Source of the DNA: Terriglobia bacterium | Lineage (GTDB): Bacteria > Acidobacteriota > Terriglobia > JAIQFV01 | Direction of reading: 5' to 3' | NCBI GenBank assembly: GCA_028716525.1 | Contig: JAQUPQ010000031.1 | Span: 1 to 49,454, forward strand | Length of the DNA stretch: 49,454 bases | Part shown: positions 17,528-32,460 of the stretch, piece by piece | Position numbering within the stretch: position 1 is the stretch's first letter | How the letters are laid out: each line of letters begins with the position of its first letter | The notes under the pieces: generated by a model | What the model saw: the letters and a program-made list of their open reading frames with translations, nothing else | Databases searched by the model: none | Told to the model about the DNA's origin: nothing | Position numbers and translations under genes: made by a program

Positions 17528-17670
17528 TGGTCCCTAACCCTTGCTGTTAAAGTCGAAAGAGGGCATTGGCTGATATTCACAACTAATTTAACACCAAGAT
17601 CTGATGAGAATCTTCCCTCTGTTTATCCTTTGGCCATCCACCCATTCTTCTTCATCTTTCCAGGTTCCTC

Positions 17671-17699
17671 TTGACAGTTGTTGTCAGGATGTTTATTTT
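17671..17699 (+). promoter_or_regulatory. Sigma70-type promoter of the TetR/exporter operon
   Basis: A perfect -35 box TTGACA (17671-17676) and a -10 box TATTTT (17694-17699) are separated by 17 bp, 30 bp upstream of the tetR start. The expected transcription start (about 17706) falls inside the palindromic operator that begins at 17700, so repressor binding would block initiation directly. Confidence 0.75.
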
Positions 17700-17715
17700 G
17701 TGAACGTACGTTCAC
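17700..17715. promoter_or_regulatory. Perfect 16-bp palindromic operator for the TetR-family regulator
   Basis: GTGAACGTACGTTCAC is a perfect inverted repeat directly after the -10 box and 13 bp before the tetR start codon. Its form (TGAACG-x-CGTTCA half sites) is the kind bound by many TetR/AcrR-type repressors. The position implies autorepression of the whole exporter operon, released when the regulator binds its ligand. No second copy was found upstream of the hlyD or permease genes. Confidence 0.75.
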
Positions 17716-17728
17716 AAAGAGGCGAAGC

Positions 17729-18352
17729 GTGGCCCGCGAAAAATTAAGCACCCAAATTCGCCGTGACCAAATCCTGGACGTGGTGTTGAAATTAATTGCC
17801 ACGCGCGGGACGTGTTCACTCCGCATGACAAGAGTGGCCCGGCAAGTGGGCCTGGTGCCGTCGGCTTTATACCGGCACTTCAAGAACCGGGACGAGATTA
17901 TCGACGCCGCGATTGACCGCTTTCAAGCCATGGTGCTGGCCAATTTCCGGCTGGCCGCTCAAGAGAGCCGCAGCGCTCAAGAACGGTTGCACCTCCTGTT
18001 GAGGCGCCAGATGGAAATTATCCGGGAAAATCAAATCAACGCGCTTCCGCGAATTGTATTTTCGGAGGATCTGTATGGCAACCGCCCTCAGCGAAAGGCT
18101 AAAGTCTACCGGATGTTGAAAAACAATCTGTCCCGCCTGGAAAATTGCTTCCGAGACGGGCAGTTGCGTGGAGAATTTCGAAAGGAACTGGATCCGCGGG
18201 CGGCGGCTCGGATGTTCCTCGCGATCCTGCAGTCGTCCGCCATTTTGTGGTTCGTCAGCAACGGGACCATCGATGTCATGGGAAATGCCGAGGCGGCTTG
18301 GGTTCTGATGAAGAATGCCATGGCCGCCAGAGCGTCGAAGGCATCCCTGTAA
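17729..18352 (+). CDS. TetR/AcrR-family transcriptional repressor
   Basis: From a GTG at 17729 (ribosome-binding site AAGAGG) the protein has 207 residues. The N-terminal helix-turn-helix is clear: RRDQILDVVLKLIATRGT (about 11-28), then MTRVARQVGLVPSALYRHFKNRDEII (split; about 33-58). The C-terminal ligand-binding half ends with helices RMFLAILQSSAILWF. An upstream in-frame start at 17678 would put the operator inside the gene and has no ribosome-binding site. Gene order matches E. coli cecR(ybiH)-ybhGFSR, where a TetR protein controls an ABC exporter that affects drug sensitivity; the ligand here is unknown. Confidence 0.88.
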   Translation: MAREKLSTQIRRDQILDVVLKLIATRGTCSLRMTRVARQVGLVPSALYRHFKNRDEIIDAAIDRFQAMVLANFRLAAQESRSAQERLHLLLRRQMEIIRENQINALPRIVFSEDLYGNRPQRKAKVYRMLKNNLSRLENCFRDGQLRGEFRKELDPRAAARMFLAILQSSAILWFVSNGTIDVMGNAEAAWVLMKNAMAARASKASL

Positions 18353-18377
18353 ATTCACGATTCGTTGGGAGTGAGCG

Positions 18378-19541
18378 ATGGACAATCGAAAACGAAGATT
18401 CATCGGGATAGGCCTTGCGGGTTTGGCCGTAATCGCAGTCGTATTCTATTTTGTTCTGAGTCACACACATGCCCTCGAAACGCTTCGTGTGTCCGGCAAT
18501 ATCGAGGTGACCGATGCGGAAGTCAGTTTCAAGATTCCCGGGCGGGTCTCGGAACGGCTGGTTGATGAAGGAATGCTGGTCACGACCGGCCAAACGGTGG
18601 CCCGGCTGGAGAGCGCAGATCTGGCGGAGCAGGTGGCCGTGAGAACCGCCGAATGGCAGGCGGCACAAGCATTTCTTGAGCAAATGCTCGCCGGTTCGCG
18701 TCCTGAAGAGATCCAACAGGCGAGAGACGCGGCGGAACAAAGCGGAGCTCGACTGGAAGAATTATTGGCAGGCTCACGGACCCAGGAGATTGCCACGGCT
18801 CAAGCGAGTTTGTCTCAAGCGCGGGCGGATGCGGTTCGCGCTCATAGTGATTTTGACCGATATGCCCGTCTCTTCAAAAAGGAGAATGTCTCGGCGCAGC
18901 AATATGATGCCGCTAAAGCCGCGATGGAGATGGCGGAGGCACGCCAAAAACAGGCCGAACAGCAACTCCAGTTGGTCCAGGAAGGCCCCCGACATGAACA
19001 GATCGAACAAGCCCGAGCCGCTCTGGCACAAGCCCGAGCACACTACGCGTTGGTGAAAAAAGGTCCGCGCCGCGAAGAGATCGAACAAGCCCGAGCCCGC
19101 GCTGATGAAGCGCACCAGGCGCTGGCCATCGCACAAACACAGCTCGGCTATGCCACCCTGACGTCGCCTTTTGCCGGGGTCGTGCTTTCAAAAAATGTGG
19201 AGTCCGGAGAATTCGTCTCCCCCGGAACGCCCGTCATCACCATTGCCGACCTCAAGAACGTTTGGCTGCGGGCTTACATTAACGAATCCGATCTGGGTCG
19301 GGTGAAGCTCGGTCAACGCGTGTTTCTCACCACCGATACTTATCCGGGCAAGAAATATGAAGGGAAGATTTCCTTCATTTCGTCTCAAGCCGAATTCACC
19401 CCCAAGAATGTGCAAACGGAAAAGGAACGAGTCAAATTGGTCTACCGCATCAAGGTGGATGTGGAAAACCCCAATATGGAGCTCAAACCCGGCATGCCCG
19501 CCGACGCCGATATTGAACTGAGACCGAACGCCCGGAGTTGA
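18378..19541 (+). CDS. HlyD/YbhG-type periplasmic adaptor (membrane fusion) protein
   Basis: The 387-residue protein has one N-terminal membrane segment (about 10-28), then the split lipoyl-type domain (VSGNIEVTDAEVSFKIPGRV at about 38-57 and TLTSPFAGVVLSKNVESGEF at about 257-276) around a long alpha-helical hairpin rich in Ala/Gln/Glu (about 80-250). The hairpin holds short internal repeats: LLAGSRxxEI (twice) and a GPRxExIEQARA unit (twice). The C-terminal beta domain ends in GMPADADIEL. It probably links the inner-membrane ABC transporter to an outer-membrane channel that is not encoded here. It starts 25 bp after tetR. Confidence 0.9.
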   Translation: MDNRKRRFIGIGLAGLAVIAVVFYFVLSHTHALETLRVSGNIEVTDAEVSFKIPGRVSERLVDEGMLVTTGQTVARLESADLAEQVAVRTAEWQAAQAFLEQMLAGSRPEEIQQARDAAEQSGARLEELLAGSRTQEIATAQASLSQARADAVRAHSDFDRYARLFKKENVSAQQYDAAKAAMEMAEARQKQAEQQLQLVQEGPRHEQIEQARAALAQARAHYALVKKGPRREEIEQARARADEAHQALAIAQTQLGYATLTSPFAGVVLSKNVESGEFVSPGTPVITIADLKNVWLRAYINESDLGRVKLGQRVFLTTDTYPGKKYEGKISFISSQAEFTPKNVQTEKERVKLVYRIKVDVENPNMELKPGMPADADIELRPNARS

Positions 19542-19548
19542 AACGCCC

Positions 19549-20526
19549 ATGGAAACCATTCGAATCGAAGGATTGACGAAGAAATTCGGGGCGACGACGG
19601 CGGTCGACCATCTGCATCTGAGCATATCTGCAGGAGAGGTGTTTGGTTTGGTGGGTCCTGATGGAGCCGGAAAAACGACCACCATGCGCCTGCTCACCGC
19701 CATTTTGGAGCCTTCCTCGGGAGACGCTTGGGTGGCCGGGCATCACATCGTGAAGGAAGCCGGGGCCATCAGTGATGACATCGGCTACATGGCGCAGCGC
19801 TTCGGCCTTTATCCCGATTTGACCGTGGCCGAAAATATAACCTTTTATGCGGATATCTATGGTGTTCCTCAAAAGGGACGCGCCGAAAAAGTCGATCAGC
19901 TGTTGGGATTCAGCAATCTGCTGCCCTTCAAGAAACGCCTGGCCGGGAATCTCTCCGGTGGGATGAAACAAAAGCTGGGCTTGGCCTGTGCGCTCATCCA
20001 CACACCCAAGGTGCTGTTCCTCGACGAACCGACGAATGGCGTCGACCCGGTGTCGAGGCGCGATTTTTGGAGGATTCTCTATCATCTTCTGAGGCAGCAA
20101 GTCACCATCTTTGTGTCCACGGCCTACCTCGACGAGGCGGAACGATGCAGCCGGGTGGGATTGATTCATAAAGGGAAATTATTGGCTGTCGGAACGCCCG
20201 CGGAAGTCAAGCAACTGTCTCGCGGATCCATCCTGGAAGTTCGATGCCTCGAACCTCGCCGCGCCACGGCCTTGTTGCGGCAGGGCATGCCCGCGGCGGC
20301 CGTGGGGATGTTTGGCGATCGGGTGCATGTCGTTGCCGCTGATCCGGAACAGGCGGCTCAACAAATTGATCACACCTTGTCTGCCGCCGGGCTGGCCTTG
20401 GAAAGCCTTCACACAATCGAGCCCACGTTGGAGGATGTTTTTGTTTCTGTCCTTTCGAGAGAAGGCGGCGAAAAATTGCCTCCCCGGATGCAGCCCGGCG
20501 ATCCCTCTTCAGCGAGCCGATTATGA
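19549..20526 (+). CDS. ABC exporter ATPase, first of a pair (YbhF N-half-like)
   Basis: This 325-residue ATPase resembles the N-terminal half of E. coli YbhF. Walker A is GPDGAGKTT (about 39-47), the signature is LSGGMKQKLGLACAL, and Walker B is VLFLDEPTNGVDP. The H-loop reads VSTAYLDEAE, so the usual His is replaced by Ala, which predicts weak or no hydrolysis at that site. The C-terminal extension (about 230-325) is the extra domain of this exporter subfamily. Its stop overlaps the start of the second ATPase (ATGA), suggesting coupled translation of a heterodimer. Confidence 0.9.
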   Translation: METIRIEGLTKKFGATTAVDHLHLSISAGEVFGLVGPDGAGKTTTMRLLTAILEPSSGDAWVAGHHIVKEAGAISDDIGYMAQRFGLYPDLTVAENITFYADIYGVPQKGRAEKVDQLLGFSNLLPFKKRLAGNLSGGMKQKLGLACALIHTPKVLFLDEPTNGVDPVSRRDFWRILYHLLRQQVTIFVSTAYLDEAERCSRVGLIHKGKLLAVGTPAEVKQLSRGSILEVRCLEPRRATALLRQGMPAAAVGMFGDRVHVVAADPEQAAQQIDHTLSAAGLALESLHTIEPTLEDVFVSVLSREGGEKLPPRMQPGDPSSASRL

Positions 20527-21506
20527 AAAATTCAAGTCCGGGTGCCGATGACAAGGCCGTGGTGGTCCAAGACCTGGAAAAACGATTCGGAAATTTTGTC
20601 GCCGTCAATCGCATCAGCTTTGAAGTGCGTCGCGGGGAGATCTTTGGATTCCTGGGGCCCAACGGGGCCGGCAAGTCCACTACGATTCGAATGTTGTGCG
20701 GCATTTTGGCGCCCACCGCGGGCCGCGGGCGGGTGGCCGGATTTGATTTGCAAACTCAGACCGAAGCGATCAAGAAAAACATCGGATACATGAGCCAGCG
20801 GTTTTCCCTCTACGAGGATCTGACCGTGGAGGAGAACATTAATTTCTACGGCGGCATTTATCGCATTCCCTCTCAGAAGAAACAGGACCGCAAAGAATGG
20901 GTCATCGAAATGGCCGGTCTTCAAGAGCATCGACACACCCGTACCAGCATGCTCGCCGGCGGCTGGAAGCAGCGGCTGGCGTTGGGATGTGCCATCTTGC
21001 ATGAACCGCCCCTCCTCTTCCTGGATGAGCCGACATCGGGGGTTGATCCCATCAGCCGGCGATTGTTTTGGGATTTAATCTACGACATGGCCGGGCGCGG
21101 CGTGACCGTCTTCGTGACCACGCATTACATGGACGAGGCGGAGAATTGCGATCGGGTGGCATTAATCTACCGTGGAGAGTTGATCGCTCTGGATACGCCG
21201 GTTGTCCTCAAGACCCGGTTGATGCGAGAGCAGATCTTGGAGGTGCAGTGCGAACGTCCGCCGGACGCCTTGGGGATACTGGAGAAGGCCGCGGGAATTC
21301 AAGAGGCGGCGTTGTTTGGAAATGCGCTGCACATCGTCACGAATCAGCCCGAAACAGCCGCGGCTTCCGTCCGCGAGGCGTTAGCCCGAAACCACTTAGT
21401 GCTGCGTAGCGTGGAGAAGATTGCACCCTCGCTCGAGGATGTATTTGTTTCATTGATCGAGGAGCGGGATCGTAGGGAGAAACCTGTTCAGGAAGTGCGG
21501 GCGTGA
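20523..21506 (+). CDS. ABC exporter ATPase, second of a pair (YbhF C-half-like)
   Basis: This 327-residue ATPase resembles the C-terminal half of YbhF. Walker A is GPNGAGKST, Walker B LLFLDEPTSGVDP and the H-loop VTTHYMDEAE with its His intact. The signature is LAGGWKQRLALGCAI instead of LSGGQ, a variant common in this subfamily. With the first ATPase it should power the two ABC-2 permeases downstream. A 103-bp gap holding an inverted-repeat element separates it from the permease genes. Confidence 0.9.
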   Translation: MKNSSPGADDKAVVVQDLEKRFGNFVAVNRISFEVRRGEIFGFLGPNGAGKSTTIRMLCGILAPTAGRGRVAGFDLQTQTEAIKKNIGYMSQRFSLYEDLTVEENINFYGGIYRIPSQKKQDRKEWVIEMAGLQEHRHTRTSMLAGGWKQRLALGCAILHEPPLLFLDEPTSGVDPISRRLFWDLIYDMAGRGVTVFVTTHYMDEAENCDRVALIYRGELIALDTPVVLKTRLMREQILEVQCERPPDALGILEKAAGIQEAALFGNALHIVTNQPETAAASVREALARNHLVLRSVEKIAPSLEDVFVSLIEERDRREKPVQEVRA

Positions 21507-21511
21507 GGAGA

Positions 21512-21571
21512 GGGGACAGACACCTGGTCCTTGGATCTTTCACGGTTTTCGAGCATGAGGTGTCTGTCCCC
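21512..21571. repeat. Inverted-repeat element GGGGACAGACACCT (copy 1)
   Basis: GGGGACAGACACCT (21512-21525) and its exact reverse complement AGGTGTCTGTCCCC (21558-21571) enclose a 32-nt loop. A second element with the same arms but an unrelated loop lies at 45960-46020. It sits between the second ATPase and the first permease of the exporter operon and has no T-run directly after it (CATTTT follows). Arms of this type are widespread REP-like repeats in several bacterial phyla, as I recall; no transposase is encoded nearby. Confidence 0.8.
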
Positions 21572-21609
21572 ATTTTCCCCATTTTCCGCCATGGAGCGTT
21601 GACTCAGCC

Positions 21610-22743
21610 ATGAACTGGATGCGATTTTGGGCCGTGGGCCGCAAAGAGTTTATTCACGTTATTCGTGATCCGCAGAGCTTGATAACCTCCATTGCCATCC
21701 CGATGTTGCTGCTCACGCTGTTTGGCTACGCGTTGTCGTTGGATGTGGATCGGGTGCCGATGGTGGTGTGGGATCAAAGCCGGACACCCGCCAGCCGGGA
21801 TTTCATCGACCTGTTCAAAGGGTCCCGATACTTTTCGCTGCAGAACTATGTCGATACGTACTCGCGCTTGGAACGCGCGATTGATGGCGGGACAGCGATT
21901 GTCGGAATGGTTCTGCCGACAGATTTTTCTGAACGCTTAGGCGCCGGCCGTCCGGTATCAGTTCAGCTGATTGTCGATGGAAGCGATTCCAACACGGCGA
22001 CCATCGCGATGGGATATGCGGACGCGATTGTTCAGTCCTATTCCTTGAATGCTTCCGTCAAGCGTGTCGAACGGCTGGGTGCGCACGTGCCCAGGCCGCC
22101 GCTGGATTTTCAACCCCGCGTTTGGTTTAACGAGGATTTGCAATCGAGAAACTACATTGTGCCCGGATTGATTGCCGTCATCATGATGATCATAGCCGCC
22201 ATGTTGACCTCGCTCACGGTGGCCCGCGAATGGGAGCGCGGCACCATGGAACAGCTCCTGTCGACGCCCGTGCGCGCTCCGGAGCTGATTTTCGGAAAGC
22301 TCGTTCCTTATTTTGTGATCGGTATGGTCGATGTGGTTCTCGCGGTGCTGATGGGACAATTTCTTTTTCATGTTCCTCTTCGCGGCAGTGTCTTGCTTCT
22401 ATTCATCATGGCGGCCGTTTTCCTGGCCGGCGCTTTGTCGCTCGGCATTTTGATCAGTGTTCTGATGAAGAATCAACTGCTCGCCAGCCAGGCGGCCATG
22501 ATTTTGACGTACCTGCCTGCTTTCCTGCTGTCCGGCTTCATGTTTGCCATCGGCAACATGCCGAAGCCGCTGCAATGGCTTTCCTATTTAATTCCGGCCC
22601 GCTATTTCATCACCTTGTTGAAGGGCATTTATTTGAAAGGGACTGGAATTCGCGTCCTCGCGCCGGAGGCTTTGTTGCTGGTGGTGTTCGCGATCGTCAT
22701 GATGGTTTTGGCAAACGTTCGTTTCAAGAAGCGTCTGGAGTGA
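21610..22743 (+). CDS. ABC-2 type exporter permease (YbhS-like)
   Basis: This 377-residue membrane protein has one N-terminal segment (about 21-41), a large periplasmic domain (about 45-175; contains IVDGSDSNTATIAMGYA) and five C-terminal membrane segments (about 180-375), the ABC-2 topology. WERGTMEQLLSTPVRAPELIFGKLVPYF (broken here) is the coupling-helix region. The start context KEFIHVIRDPQSL is typical of the YbhS/YbhR family. The next gene, a paralogue, starts 2 bp after the stop; together they should form a heterodimeric channel. Confidence 0.9.
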   Translation: MNWMRFWAVGRKEFIHVIRDPQSLITSIAIPMLLLTLFGYALSLDVDRVPMVVWDQSRTPASRDFIDLFKGSRYFSLQNYVDTYSRLERAIDGGTAIVGMVLPTDFSERLGAGRPVSVQLIVDGSDSNTATIAMGYADAIVQSYSLNASVKRVERLGAHVPRPPLDFQPRVWFNEDLQSRNYIVPGLIAVIMMIIAAMLTSLTVAREWERGTMEQLLSTPVRAPELIFGKLVPYFVIGMVDVVLAVLMGQFLFHVPLRGSVLLLFIMAAVFLAGALSLGILISVLMKNQLLASQAAMILTYLPAFLLSGFMFAIGNMPKPLQWLSYLIPARYFITLLKGIYLKGTGIRVLAPEALLLVVFAIVMMVLANVRFKKRLE

Positions 22744-22745
22744 TT

Positions 22746-23876
22746 ATGTGGGAGCGCCTTCGAGAGATGCTCATCAAGGAGTTCATCCAGGTCCTTCGTG
22801 ACCCCAAGATGAAACGCATCATCTTTCTGATGCCGATCATTCAGGTTCTGGTGTTCGGTTACGCGGTAACCACGGACGTGAATCATGTTCCGACGGCTGT
22901 TTACGATCTCGATAATTCCGTTGCCAGCCGGGATTTGATCGCCCGCTTCGTTCGCTCCGGGTATTTTGACATCGTGGAGAACGTTGTGGATGCGGCTCGC
23001 GCGGAACACTTGATGGACCAGGGGCACATCAGCGTTCTTGTCCGGGTGGACCGGGGATTCGAAAATACCTTGAATGCCGGTCACTCCGCCCCGGTTCAGA
23101 TGATTGTCGACGGGACTGATTCCAACACCGCCGGGATCGTGCTTAGCTATGGGGCGAAAATCGCCAACGCCTATTCTCAACAGATTCTGGTTTCGGAAAT
23201 GAGCCGTCTGCATGGGCGGACGGCGGCCCTGCCTCAGGTCAATCTGGAGTCCCGGGCGTGGTTCAACGAGAACTTGGAGAGCCGCAATTTTTTTGTCCCC
23301 GGCGTGATTTCCTTGTTGGTCATGTTGATTACTTTGTTGCTGACGAGTATGGCAGTGGTTCGTGAAAAAGAGATCGGCACCATGGAGCAAATTATGGTGA
23401 CCCCGATTTCTCCGGCGGAATTCATTCTCGGAAAAACTCTCCCGTTCGCGGCGATCGCCTTGTTTGACGTTCTCGTCATCACCCTCATCGCCGTATTTTG
23501 GTTCAGCGTTCCGGTCCGCGGCAGTTTGGTGTTGCTGTTCTTTGCGACGACAATCTATTTGATGACGTCGCTGGGAATTGGACTGTTGATCTCGACCATC
23601 AGCCAAACGCAACAGCAAGCCATGCTGACCACGTTTCTCTTCTTTCAACCGGCCGTACTGTTATCGGGCTTCATGTTTCCCATTGCCAATATGCCGAGGG
23701 TTATTCAGTGGTTGACCTATCTGGATCCGTTGCGGTATTTCCTGGTCATTCTTCGCGGCCTCTTCTTGAAGGGAATCGGCGTCCGCATTTTGTGGCCCCA
23801 GATGCTGGCGCTGGGCGTGATGGGAATTTCTACTTTATGGCTGGCTTCCAAACGATTTAAAAAGACGATGGTGTGA
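22746..23876 (+). CDS. ABC-2 type exporter permease (YbhR-like)
   Basis: The reading frame extends upstream inside the previous gene, but the true start is the ATG at 22746, giving 376 residues beginning MWERLREMLIKEFIQVLRDP. Topology and motifs mirror the previous permease: one N-terminal membrane segment, a periplasmic domain with IVDGTDSNTAGIVLSYG, then five membrane segments. The coupling region is REKEIGTMEQIMVTPI. The two permeases share clear similarity along their length, indicating an old duplication. It is the last gene of the operon. Confidence 0.9.
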   Translation: MWERLREMLIKEFIQVLRDPKMKRIIFLMPIIQVLVFGYAVTTDVNHVPTAVYDLDNSVASRDLIARFVRSGYFDIVENVVDAARAEHLMDQGHISVLVRVDRGFENTLNAGHSAPVQMIVDGTDSNTAGIVLSYGAKIANAYSQQILVSEMSRLHGRTAALPQVNLESRAWFNENLESRNFFVPGVISLLVMLITLLLTSMAVVREKEIGTMEQIMVTPISPAEFILGKTLPFAAIALFDVLVITLIAVFWFSVPVRGSLVLLFFATTIYLMTSLGIGLLISTISQTQQQAMLTTFLFFQPAVLLSGFMFPIANMPRVIQWLTYLDPLRYFLVILRGLFLKGIGVRILWPQMLALGVMGISTLWLASKRFKKTMV

Positions 23877-31856: not shown

Positions 31857-32460
31857 TCATCTCAATTTCGGCGCCCTCCACGGCTCTGCCTGGAAATTGC
31901 TTTGGTAGCCCCGGCAGTTCTTTATGCCGGGGATTATCTGTCGCCCGGATAGCGCTCGCCCCGATGCATCGGGGCAAGGCTGTTCTTCAAGTTTCTGTCG
32001 CCCGCCTAGGCGGGCTGGGCGATAAGGTTCTACACCATACCCCACCCTTGCTCTCCGCCCTCGGCGGAGGAGCAGCGGGTGGGGCTACCCCCCGCGGGGG
32101 ACTGACCGGCCCTCCGGGCCTAACCGAATCGGGCTTCATCATCTTCATTGTCCTGGGTGCGACTACGGCGCATGCCCGACTGCCTCGAAAATAGGAGAGG
32201 TTTCTGTCGCCCCTGCCGGGGCTTGGCGATCTTATCGGTCCGCAAGACTGTCAGTCCAGTCCCCCGCGGGGGACTGGGCTATTGAAGGTGTCCCTTGCAG
32301 GGACCAAAAAACCGTCGCTTCAAGTGCCTGAGTTCATTTTCATGCTCGTGGGTGCCCCGATACATCGGGGCATGAGGAACTGCTCCGAAAATTGAATGAT
32401 GCTTTCCTCCGCGTAGTCTCGGCGTCCTCTGCGCCTCTGCGGTAACCGGTTGCCAAATGA
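31857..32460. repeat. Large composite repeat island, right flank of the egt locus
   Basis: This 600-bp gene-free island is built of short palindromic modules. In order: GGTAGC-headed hairpin 31904-31932 (stem CCCCGGC/GCCGGGG) within a 67-nt module shared with 26465-26531; GCCCGCCTAGGCGGGC near 32000; CCCCCGCGGGGG at about 32087; a 25-nt module shared with 26535-26559 (32102-32126); CAGTCCCCCGCGGGGGACTG near 32254; CCCCGATACATCGGGG near 32357; and a reverse-orientation CGCAGAGG-type repeat (32406-32451). None of the open frames crossing it looks like a gene. Confidence 0.75.

Follow-up and report, generated by a model that had tools for sequence, protein, structure and literature searches.

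A probable palindromic operator on the promoter of a TetR-exporter operon in a Terriglobia bacterium, and a putative second operator with an upstream T run in relatives

The exporter operon and its promoter

The window, that is, the whole stretch of 49,454 nucleotides of Terriglobia DNA analysed here, carries on its forward strand a tetR gene (17729..18352, 207 aa, GTG start) followed by genes for a HlyD-type membrane-fusion protein (18378..19541), two ABC ATPases (19549..20526 and 20523..21506) and two ABC-2 permeases (21610..22743 and 22740..23876), all five assigned by profile matches. The regulator is placed in the TetR family by its N-terminal helix-turn-helix domain (TetR_N, PF00440; 35 bits, above the Pfam cut-off of 24) and its C-terminal domain (TetR_C_24, PF17932; 36.9 bits, above the cut-off of 26.4). 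Relatives align from M-A-x-E-K-L, which makes the GTG at 17729 very probably the correct start. By sequence, the named TetR proteins closest to this regulator include FadR of Bacillus, SlmA, TtgR and AcrR. NCBIfam cut-offs were reached for none of the 15 matching models, and the scores against FadR, SlmA and AcrR lie far under the cut-offs (58.8 of 200, 52.9 of 120 and 37 of 271 bits, respectively).

The gene content is that of a YbhGFSR-type exporter, with a HlyD protein, two ABC ATPase domains (in two genes) and two ABC-2 permeases. The best NCBIfam match of the HlyD protein is PRK03598, which we take to be the YbhG model, at 277.9 of 393 bits and thus below the cut-off. The gene order likewise resembles that of the E. 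coli CecR (YbiH)-YbhGFSR system, namely TetR, HlyD, ABC ATPase and two ABC-2 permeases (excerpt of PMC7190983), although in E. coli a single gene, that of YbhF, encodes both ATPase domains (same excerpt) where the window has two genes. Two further differences are that the sequence upstream of cecR is unlike that of the window and that cecR and ybhG are separated by zero gap, leaving no place for the second operator (O2) described below. Orthology of the window TetR with CecR was rejected, the similarity being not significant (BLASTP E 0.06). A further target of YbiH is rhlE (excerpt of PMC6790063).

Between the second ATPase gene and the first permease gene, at 21507-21609, lies a REP-like inverted repeat with GGGGACAGACACCT arms (fold -44.6 kcal/mol, z -3.6), which might dampen permease expression. 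The arm occurs at 34 places of the genome among the matches listed (18 + 16 by strand), with 0 for the reversed control. Outside the operon, perfect GC-rich palindromes of 18, 16 and 22 bp are clustered at 31958-32277, with repeated words such as 'tttctgtcgccc' close by.

Ahead of tetR, the initial annotation had placed a TTGACA-17 bp-TATTTT promoter, followed immediately by a perfect 16-bp palindrome and, 13 bp later, by the tetR start. The promoter is present exactly where claimed on the forward strand, with the -35 hexamer at 17671..17676 (CTTGACA in the relatives' consensus, likewise 17 bp ahead of the -10) and, after 17 bp, the -10 hexamer at 17694..17699, where relatives have a -10-like hexamer abutting the operator. 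The 16-mer GTGAACGTACGTTCAC at 17700-17715 is perfect and directly follows TATTTT, and the 13-bp spacing to the GTG at 17729 was borne out. The extent of the palindrome had, however, been understated: the exact palindrome is TTTGTGAACGTACGTTCACAAA, 22 bp at 17697..17718, with 11-bp arms and zero gap, and the GTG lies 10 bp further on. We refer to this palindrome, which contains the family core GTGAA-N6-TTCAC, as operator O1. A putative ribosome-binding site, AAAGAGG (17716..17722, forward strand), overlaps the right end of O1 and lies 6 nt ahead of the GTG.

Taken alone, the tetR promoter is unremarkable, since five promoter-like sites including this one are found over 6 kb where 2.6 are expected. 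Perfect palindromes of 22 bp occur twice in the window, O1 being one of them, and the 16-mer of O1 is present only once there at up to three mismatches (shuffled-window mean 0.12). On sequence comparison, it is conservation in relatives that raises both the promoter and the palindrome above chance. A small inverted repeat (TTGACA...TGTCA, 17669-17689) spans the -35 and was flagged as terminator-like; the promoter spacer at this place is not conserved across the seven nearest relatives.

Conservation of O1 and the extent of the regulon

The comparison was based on 88 non-redundant loci, all found via TetR sequence, with the window itself left out. More specifically, a first search of 101 genomes gave seven close TetR relatives (38-54% identity), and further loci came from the best 80 of 134 relatives from named genomes, plus more from the phylum. 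The counts exclude duplicates (L020, L024, L027, L039, L078, L100, L101 and L106), ten distant loci (L109-L118) whose regulators share 24-32% identity with whichever of eight query regulators is closest and six distant loci (L013-L018); the near-identical pairs L080/L083, L104/L105 and L021/L023 were counted separately. Start and stop codons of the relatives were called by script. Shuffles for the O1 promoter, T-run, hairpin, TATA and O2-remnant tests kept base counts only.

Within 150 nt upstream of tetR, GTGAA-N6-TTCAC was found exactly in 69/88 loci and with at most one mismatch in 86/88, and the reversed motif in 0/88. Of 5450 stretches of comparable length in other parts of these loci, 30 contain a site at one mismatch. 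By this rule, L047 and L049 have no O1 within 150 nt of tetR; at L036, L063 and L071 the site has one mismatch and is either remote from the called start or placed on it, and chance or a wrongly called start may account for these three. The distance from O1 to the called start codon is 27-31 nt in 52/86 loci. In 43/84, O1 is adjoined by a hexamer pair with a score of 10 or more out of 12 against TTGACA/TATAAT, compared to 0.36% of shuffles. All seven nearest relatives carry the motif at a near-identical place (L011 with one mismatch), preceded in register by TTGAC and a -10-like hexamer, a layout kept in 7/7 despite TetRs that are only 38-54% identical to that of the window. This comparative support for GTGAA-N6-TTCAC as the likely operator of this regulator is strong. 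The distant loci L109-L118 have an O1-like word with one mismatch in five cases and O2 in none. On this more distant branch, a related palindrome, for example AATGTGAGTGAATATTCACT, lies upstream of tetR at L112, L114, L115, L117 and L118, likewise with no O2.

These results bear on the central claim of the initial annotation, simple autorepression through blocked initiation, which is well supported given an O1 upstream of tetR in nearly all relatives and a good promoter adjoining it in about half. The candidate operator overlaps the promoter of its own operon and is conserved in relatives, as expected of an autorepressed efflux operon, and the window palindrome looks like a local autorepressor site. 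Many such TetR-family regulators bind palindromes overlapping promoters (excerpt of PMC6790063), and TetR-family autorepressors of efflux operons (PF00440) share with the window the palindrome on the promoter, the regulator in first place and the exporter behind it.

With a probability of about 0.88, we propose that O1 is the operator of its own TetR, which would repress tetR-hlyD-ABC-ABC-permease-permease at initiation and be released by a ligand, and that O2 of the relatives would block elongation. From the computed sites, geometry, conservation and 16-mer uniqueness at up to two mismatches, we infer the following course of events. Transcription would start at about 17706, in the middle of the palindrome and about 7 nt past the -10, and tetR through the second permease gene would form one transcript. 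A TetR dimer bound to 17697-17718 would cover both the -10 and the start point and would thus block initiation at the best promoter-like site ahead of the operon. TetR would then leave O1 on binding a ligand, probably one of the exporter's own substrates.

The palindrome had also been offered as a motif for finding other members of the regulon, and for the 16-mer this fails in its own genome. A single site in the 4.2-Mb assembly matches the 16-mer at up to two mismatches, though at 96.5% completeness the absence of another is not quite certain; at three mismatches there are 12 other genome sites and 10 for the reversed-pattern control. The shorter pattern TGTGAAN6TTCACA (12 fixed bases) leaves some room for an unlikely reading in which TetR governs several operons of its own genome via weaker sites: at up to two mismatches it matches 155 sites per strand, own site included, versus 65 for the reversed control. 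In the window, GTGAAN6TTCAC at up to two mismatches is likewise in excess (34 versus a shuffle mean of 21.9, with 0/100 shuffles reaching 34). However, only seven other places match TGTGAAN6TTCACA at one mismatch and none at zero, and the excess is at least partly due to repeats, because several of the two-mismatch sites among the matches listed are copies of the repeated word GGTGAAAAAGAATTCAAA. We therefore see no convincing sign that the regulon extends past the operon itself.

The half-site TGTGA is similar to that of CRP, and one might suppose that another regulator, such as a CRP/FNR-type or global protein, binds the palindrome with tetR as a mere bystander. We consider this very improbable. 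CRP sites are spaced as TGTGA-N6-TCACA and the spacing here is TGTGA-N8-TCACA; moreover, the site tracks the TetR clade across several phyla, ahead of differing target genes, and the 16-mer has no further genome site at up to two mismatches.

The genes near the regulator vary by locus and include HlyD-ABC exporters, RND and MMPL pumps, CLC channels and a hybrid-cluster protein. For example, the same kind of regulator and operator was observed at L059, L060, L072, L028, L021, L093, L098 and L052 near genes for a HlyD protein, a hybrid-cluster protein with an ODP-type metallo-beta-lactamase protein, a CLC chloride channel, MMPL or an AcrB-type pump. Such varied neighbours suggest differing inducers, possibly nitrosative stress in some cases. 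O1 of the window gives the key to a family-wide code, since GTGAA-N6-TTCAC can be recognised across several phyla, close to pumps of the ABC, RND and MMPL kinds, to CLC channels and to hybrid-cluster proteins.

A putative second operator behind the regulator gene

At the end of tetR, in a zone from 40 nt before to 120 nt after the stop codon, 46 of the 88 loci carry a putative second operator, O2 (41 exact; reversed motif, 0). It lies 15-19 nt past the tetR stop in 25 loci. The flank of O2 is unlike that of O1, with no -35, no consistent -10 and a T run instead. A run of at least five Ts occurs in the 25 nt upstream of 28/46 O2 sites versus 6/86 O1 sites. By a rule that was derived and counted on the same loci, such a run ends exactly 9 nt before GTGAA at 22/46 O2 sites, compared to 0.24 expected from shuffles of the same bases and 0/86 at O1. 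The run begins anywhere between 7 nt ahead of the last base of the stop codon and 62 nt past it; the end of the run is fixed at -9. Five Ts in a row within 40 nt after the tetR stop are found in 29/46 loci with O2 and in 0/42 loci without. Eighteen of the 46 O2 sites have no run of five Ts, including those of L006, L007, L008 and L010, which belong to the seven nearest relatives.

Eight exact sites lie further downstream, and in four of them a run of at least four Ts ends at -9 (0.10 expected); one of the eight, at L030, resembles the promoter of another tetR. At L022, L034, L036 and L045 such a site precedes the hlyD match by 29-95 nt with a gap to tetR of 255-1300 nt. Since these sites stay near hlyD despite the long gap, it seems to be the target gene with which O2 is associated.

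T-run sites were found in Acidobacteriota, Planctomycetota, Thermodesulfobacteriota, Verrucomicrobiota, Myxococcota and Fermentibacterota. Desulforhopalus singaporensis DSM 12130 (L059) and Desulfobulbus rhabdoformis DSM 8777 (L060) are two relatives that carry a T-run O2. On a quick tree of 89 regulators, in which 37/86 inner branches are poorly supported, the T run requires at least 18 changes, a count that takes gain and loss together and has no shuffled control; the T run is therefore not one inherited accident. Searching 396 genomes of the phylum with T6-N9-GTGAAN6TTCAC gave three matches (reversed control, 0), two of them directly behind tetR homologues; the third, L123, has no homologue in 1.9 kb and is probably due to chance. 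A class-level search for further T-run loci gave nothing new.

In the window itself O2 is absent and only O1 is found, and the gap between tetR and hlyD is 25 nt. The word GTAAATTCAC at 18349..18358, which overlaps the tetR stop, is a possible remnant: it differs at one position from the half-sites GTGAA and TTCAC fused without their 6-bp centre, and 21 of 20,000 shuffles match the fused O2 half-sites equally well. In an alignment, GTA of GTAAATTCAC falls under GTGA of the relatives' O2. We suggest with modest confidence that this word may be a collapsed O2 and that the window's genome seems to have lost the second operator. With O2 missing, control by O1 alone, and hence simple initiation control, is expected. 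The window site looks like an ordinary operator. What sets the relatives apart from the TetR-family autorepressors of efflux operons is the second operator between regulator and target, often with an upstream T run. Neither the GTGAA-N6-TTCAC motif nor a T-run operator was found in the literature among the matches listed.

Possible action of the second operator

In relatives with O2, the repressor probably also blocks elongating polymerase. DNA-bound repressors inside a transcription unit halt polymerase in the case of LacI, CcpA and CodY (excerpts of PMC4132739 and PMC10310618), and the proposed O2 resembles these bacterial roadblocks in that a bound repressor would stop polymerase within the unit. 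When E. coli polymerase meets the EcoRI Gln111 roadblock, it halts 14 nt upstream of the protein's site (excerpt of PMC5499547). Counting these 14 nt back from the initial G of GTGAA or from the palindrome edge at -2 places the RNA end at -14 or -16, in either case inside a T7 run ending at -10.

As the favoured reading of O2 we propose a repressor-dependent roadblock terminator, with a second promoter, an intrinsic terminator and looping as weaker rivals. More specifically, the T7-N9-operator arrangement behind tetR could be a bacterial terminator that is active only while the repressor is bound, a tentative suggestion to which we give somewhat less than even odds. The bound repressor would halt RNA polymerase with the RNA 3' end inside the T run, and a weak rU-dA hybrid together with backtracking would release the halted enzyme. 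Thus the regulator would be made while its target stays off, with no RNA hairpin required, until a ligand lifts the block at O2. If this is correct, the T-run operator would be a compact, hairpin-free switch for ending transcription and could be used as a part in gene circuits.

A comparable element is the eukaryotic polymerase I terminator (Reb1/Nsi1, TTF1), a protein roadblock with a T-rich stretch 15 bp upstream that favours backtracking (excerpt of PMC12366685). A T run likewise ends at a constant spacing, 9 nt ahead of the operator, at 22/46 O2 sites. The differences are that another polymerase is involved, that a hairpin was found necessary there, for fast release (same excerpt), whereas half of the T-run O2 sites have no adjoining hairpin, and that the proposed bacterial roadblock would be controlled by a ligand. 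At the LacI roadblock in E. coli, Mfd clears most of the stalled polymerase, and upstream sequence is named as a factor beyond those tested (excerpt of PMC4132739). The excerpts on bacterial roadblocks mention no T run at a fixed distance.

A T-rich stretch ahead of an operator could also be the spacer of a second promoter that serves the pump alone, with O2 as its operator. Two observations are consistent with this reading, which we nevertheless regard as unlikely: the four bases before the operator's AT match TATA at 1.68 of 4 positions versus 1.04 in local shuffles, and L011 has TATAAT at O2. The best -35 match, on the other hand, averages 2.7 of 6 at O2 sites with T runs versus 4.1 at O1, and a promoter score of at least 10 of 12 is reached at 1/46 O2 sites compared to 43/84 for O1. 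Furthermore, the TATAAT match is at most 3 of 6 in 14/28 T-run sites, where the operator's AT alone gives 2, and the TATAAT score hardly differs between O2 sites with a T run (3.32) and all O2 sites (3.24).

T tracts are able to bend DNA, and O1 and O2 lie 619-710 bp apart within one operon in 45 loci. The two operators could accordingly form a loop, or the T run could merely bend DNA for the repressor, but the data make either quite improbable. The distances between O1 and O2 have no helical phasing (n = 45, R 0.17-0.20), no O1 site (0/86) has a five-T run at the same place, and the run is found on the upstream side only (downstream runs of at least five As at 2/46 sites and of Ts at 1/46).

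The T run could also be the end of an ordinary intrinsic terminator of tetR. No hairpin abuts the T run in 14/28 cases, and the mean hairpin energy at the run is -4.7 kcal/mol, near the -3.5 kcal/mol of shuffles. Since a hairpin is not general among the T runs, the repressor-dependent roadblock is favoured. Hairpins of -8 kcal/mol or lower do occur in 8/28 cases where shuffles give about 5 (17.5%), and strong ones precede the T run at several O2 sites (L009, L084, L093, L104 and L105) and at the downstream site of L072. Folding of the 50 nt upstream gives a mean z of -0.31, with 3/28 below -2. In addition, the position of the T run is fixed relative to the operator and not to the stop codon, and no locus lacking O2 has a five-T run within 40 nt behind tetR, so that we rate the intrinsic terminator as improbable, if marginally less so than looping or bending. 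In the downstream element of L072, some 3734 nt past the tetR stop, a strong hairpin is followed by T7 and, 9 nt later, by the operator, which reads as a putative intrinsic terminator joined to an operator.
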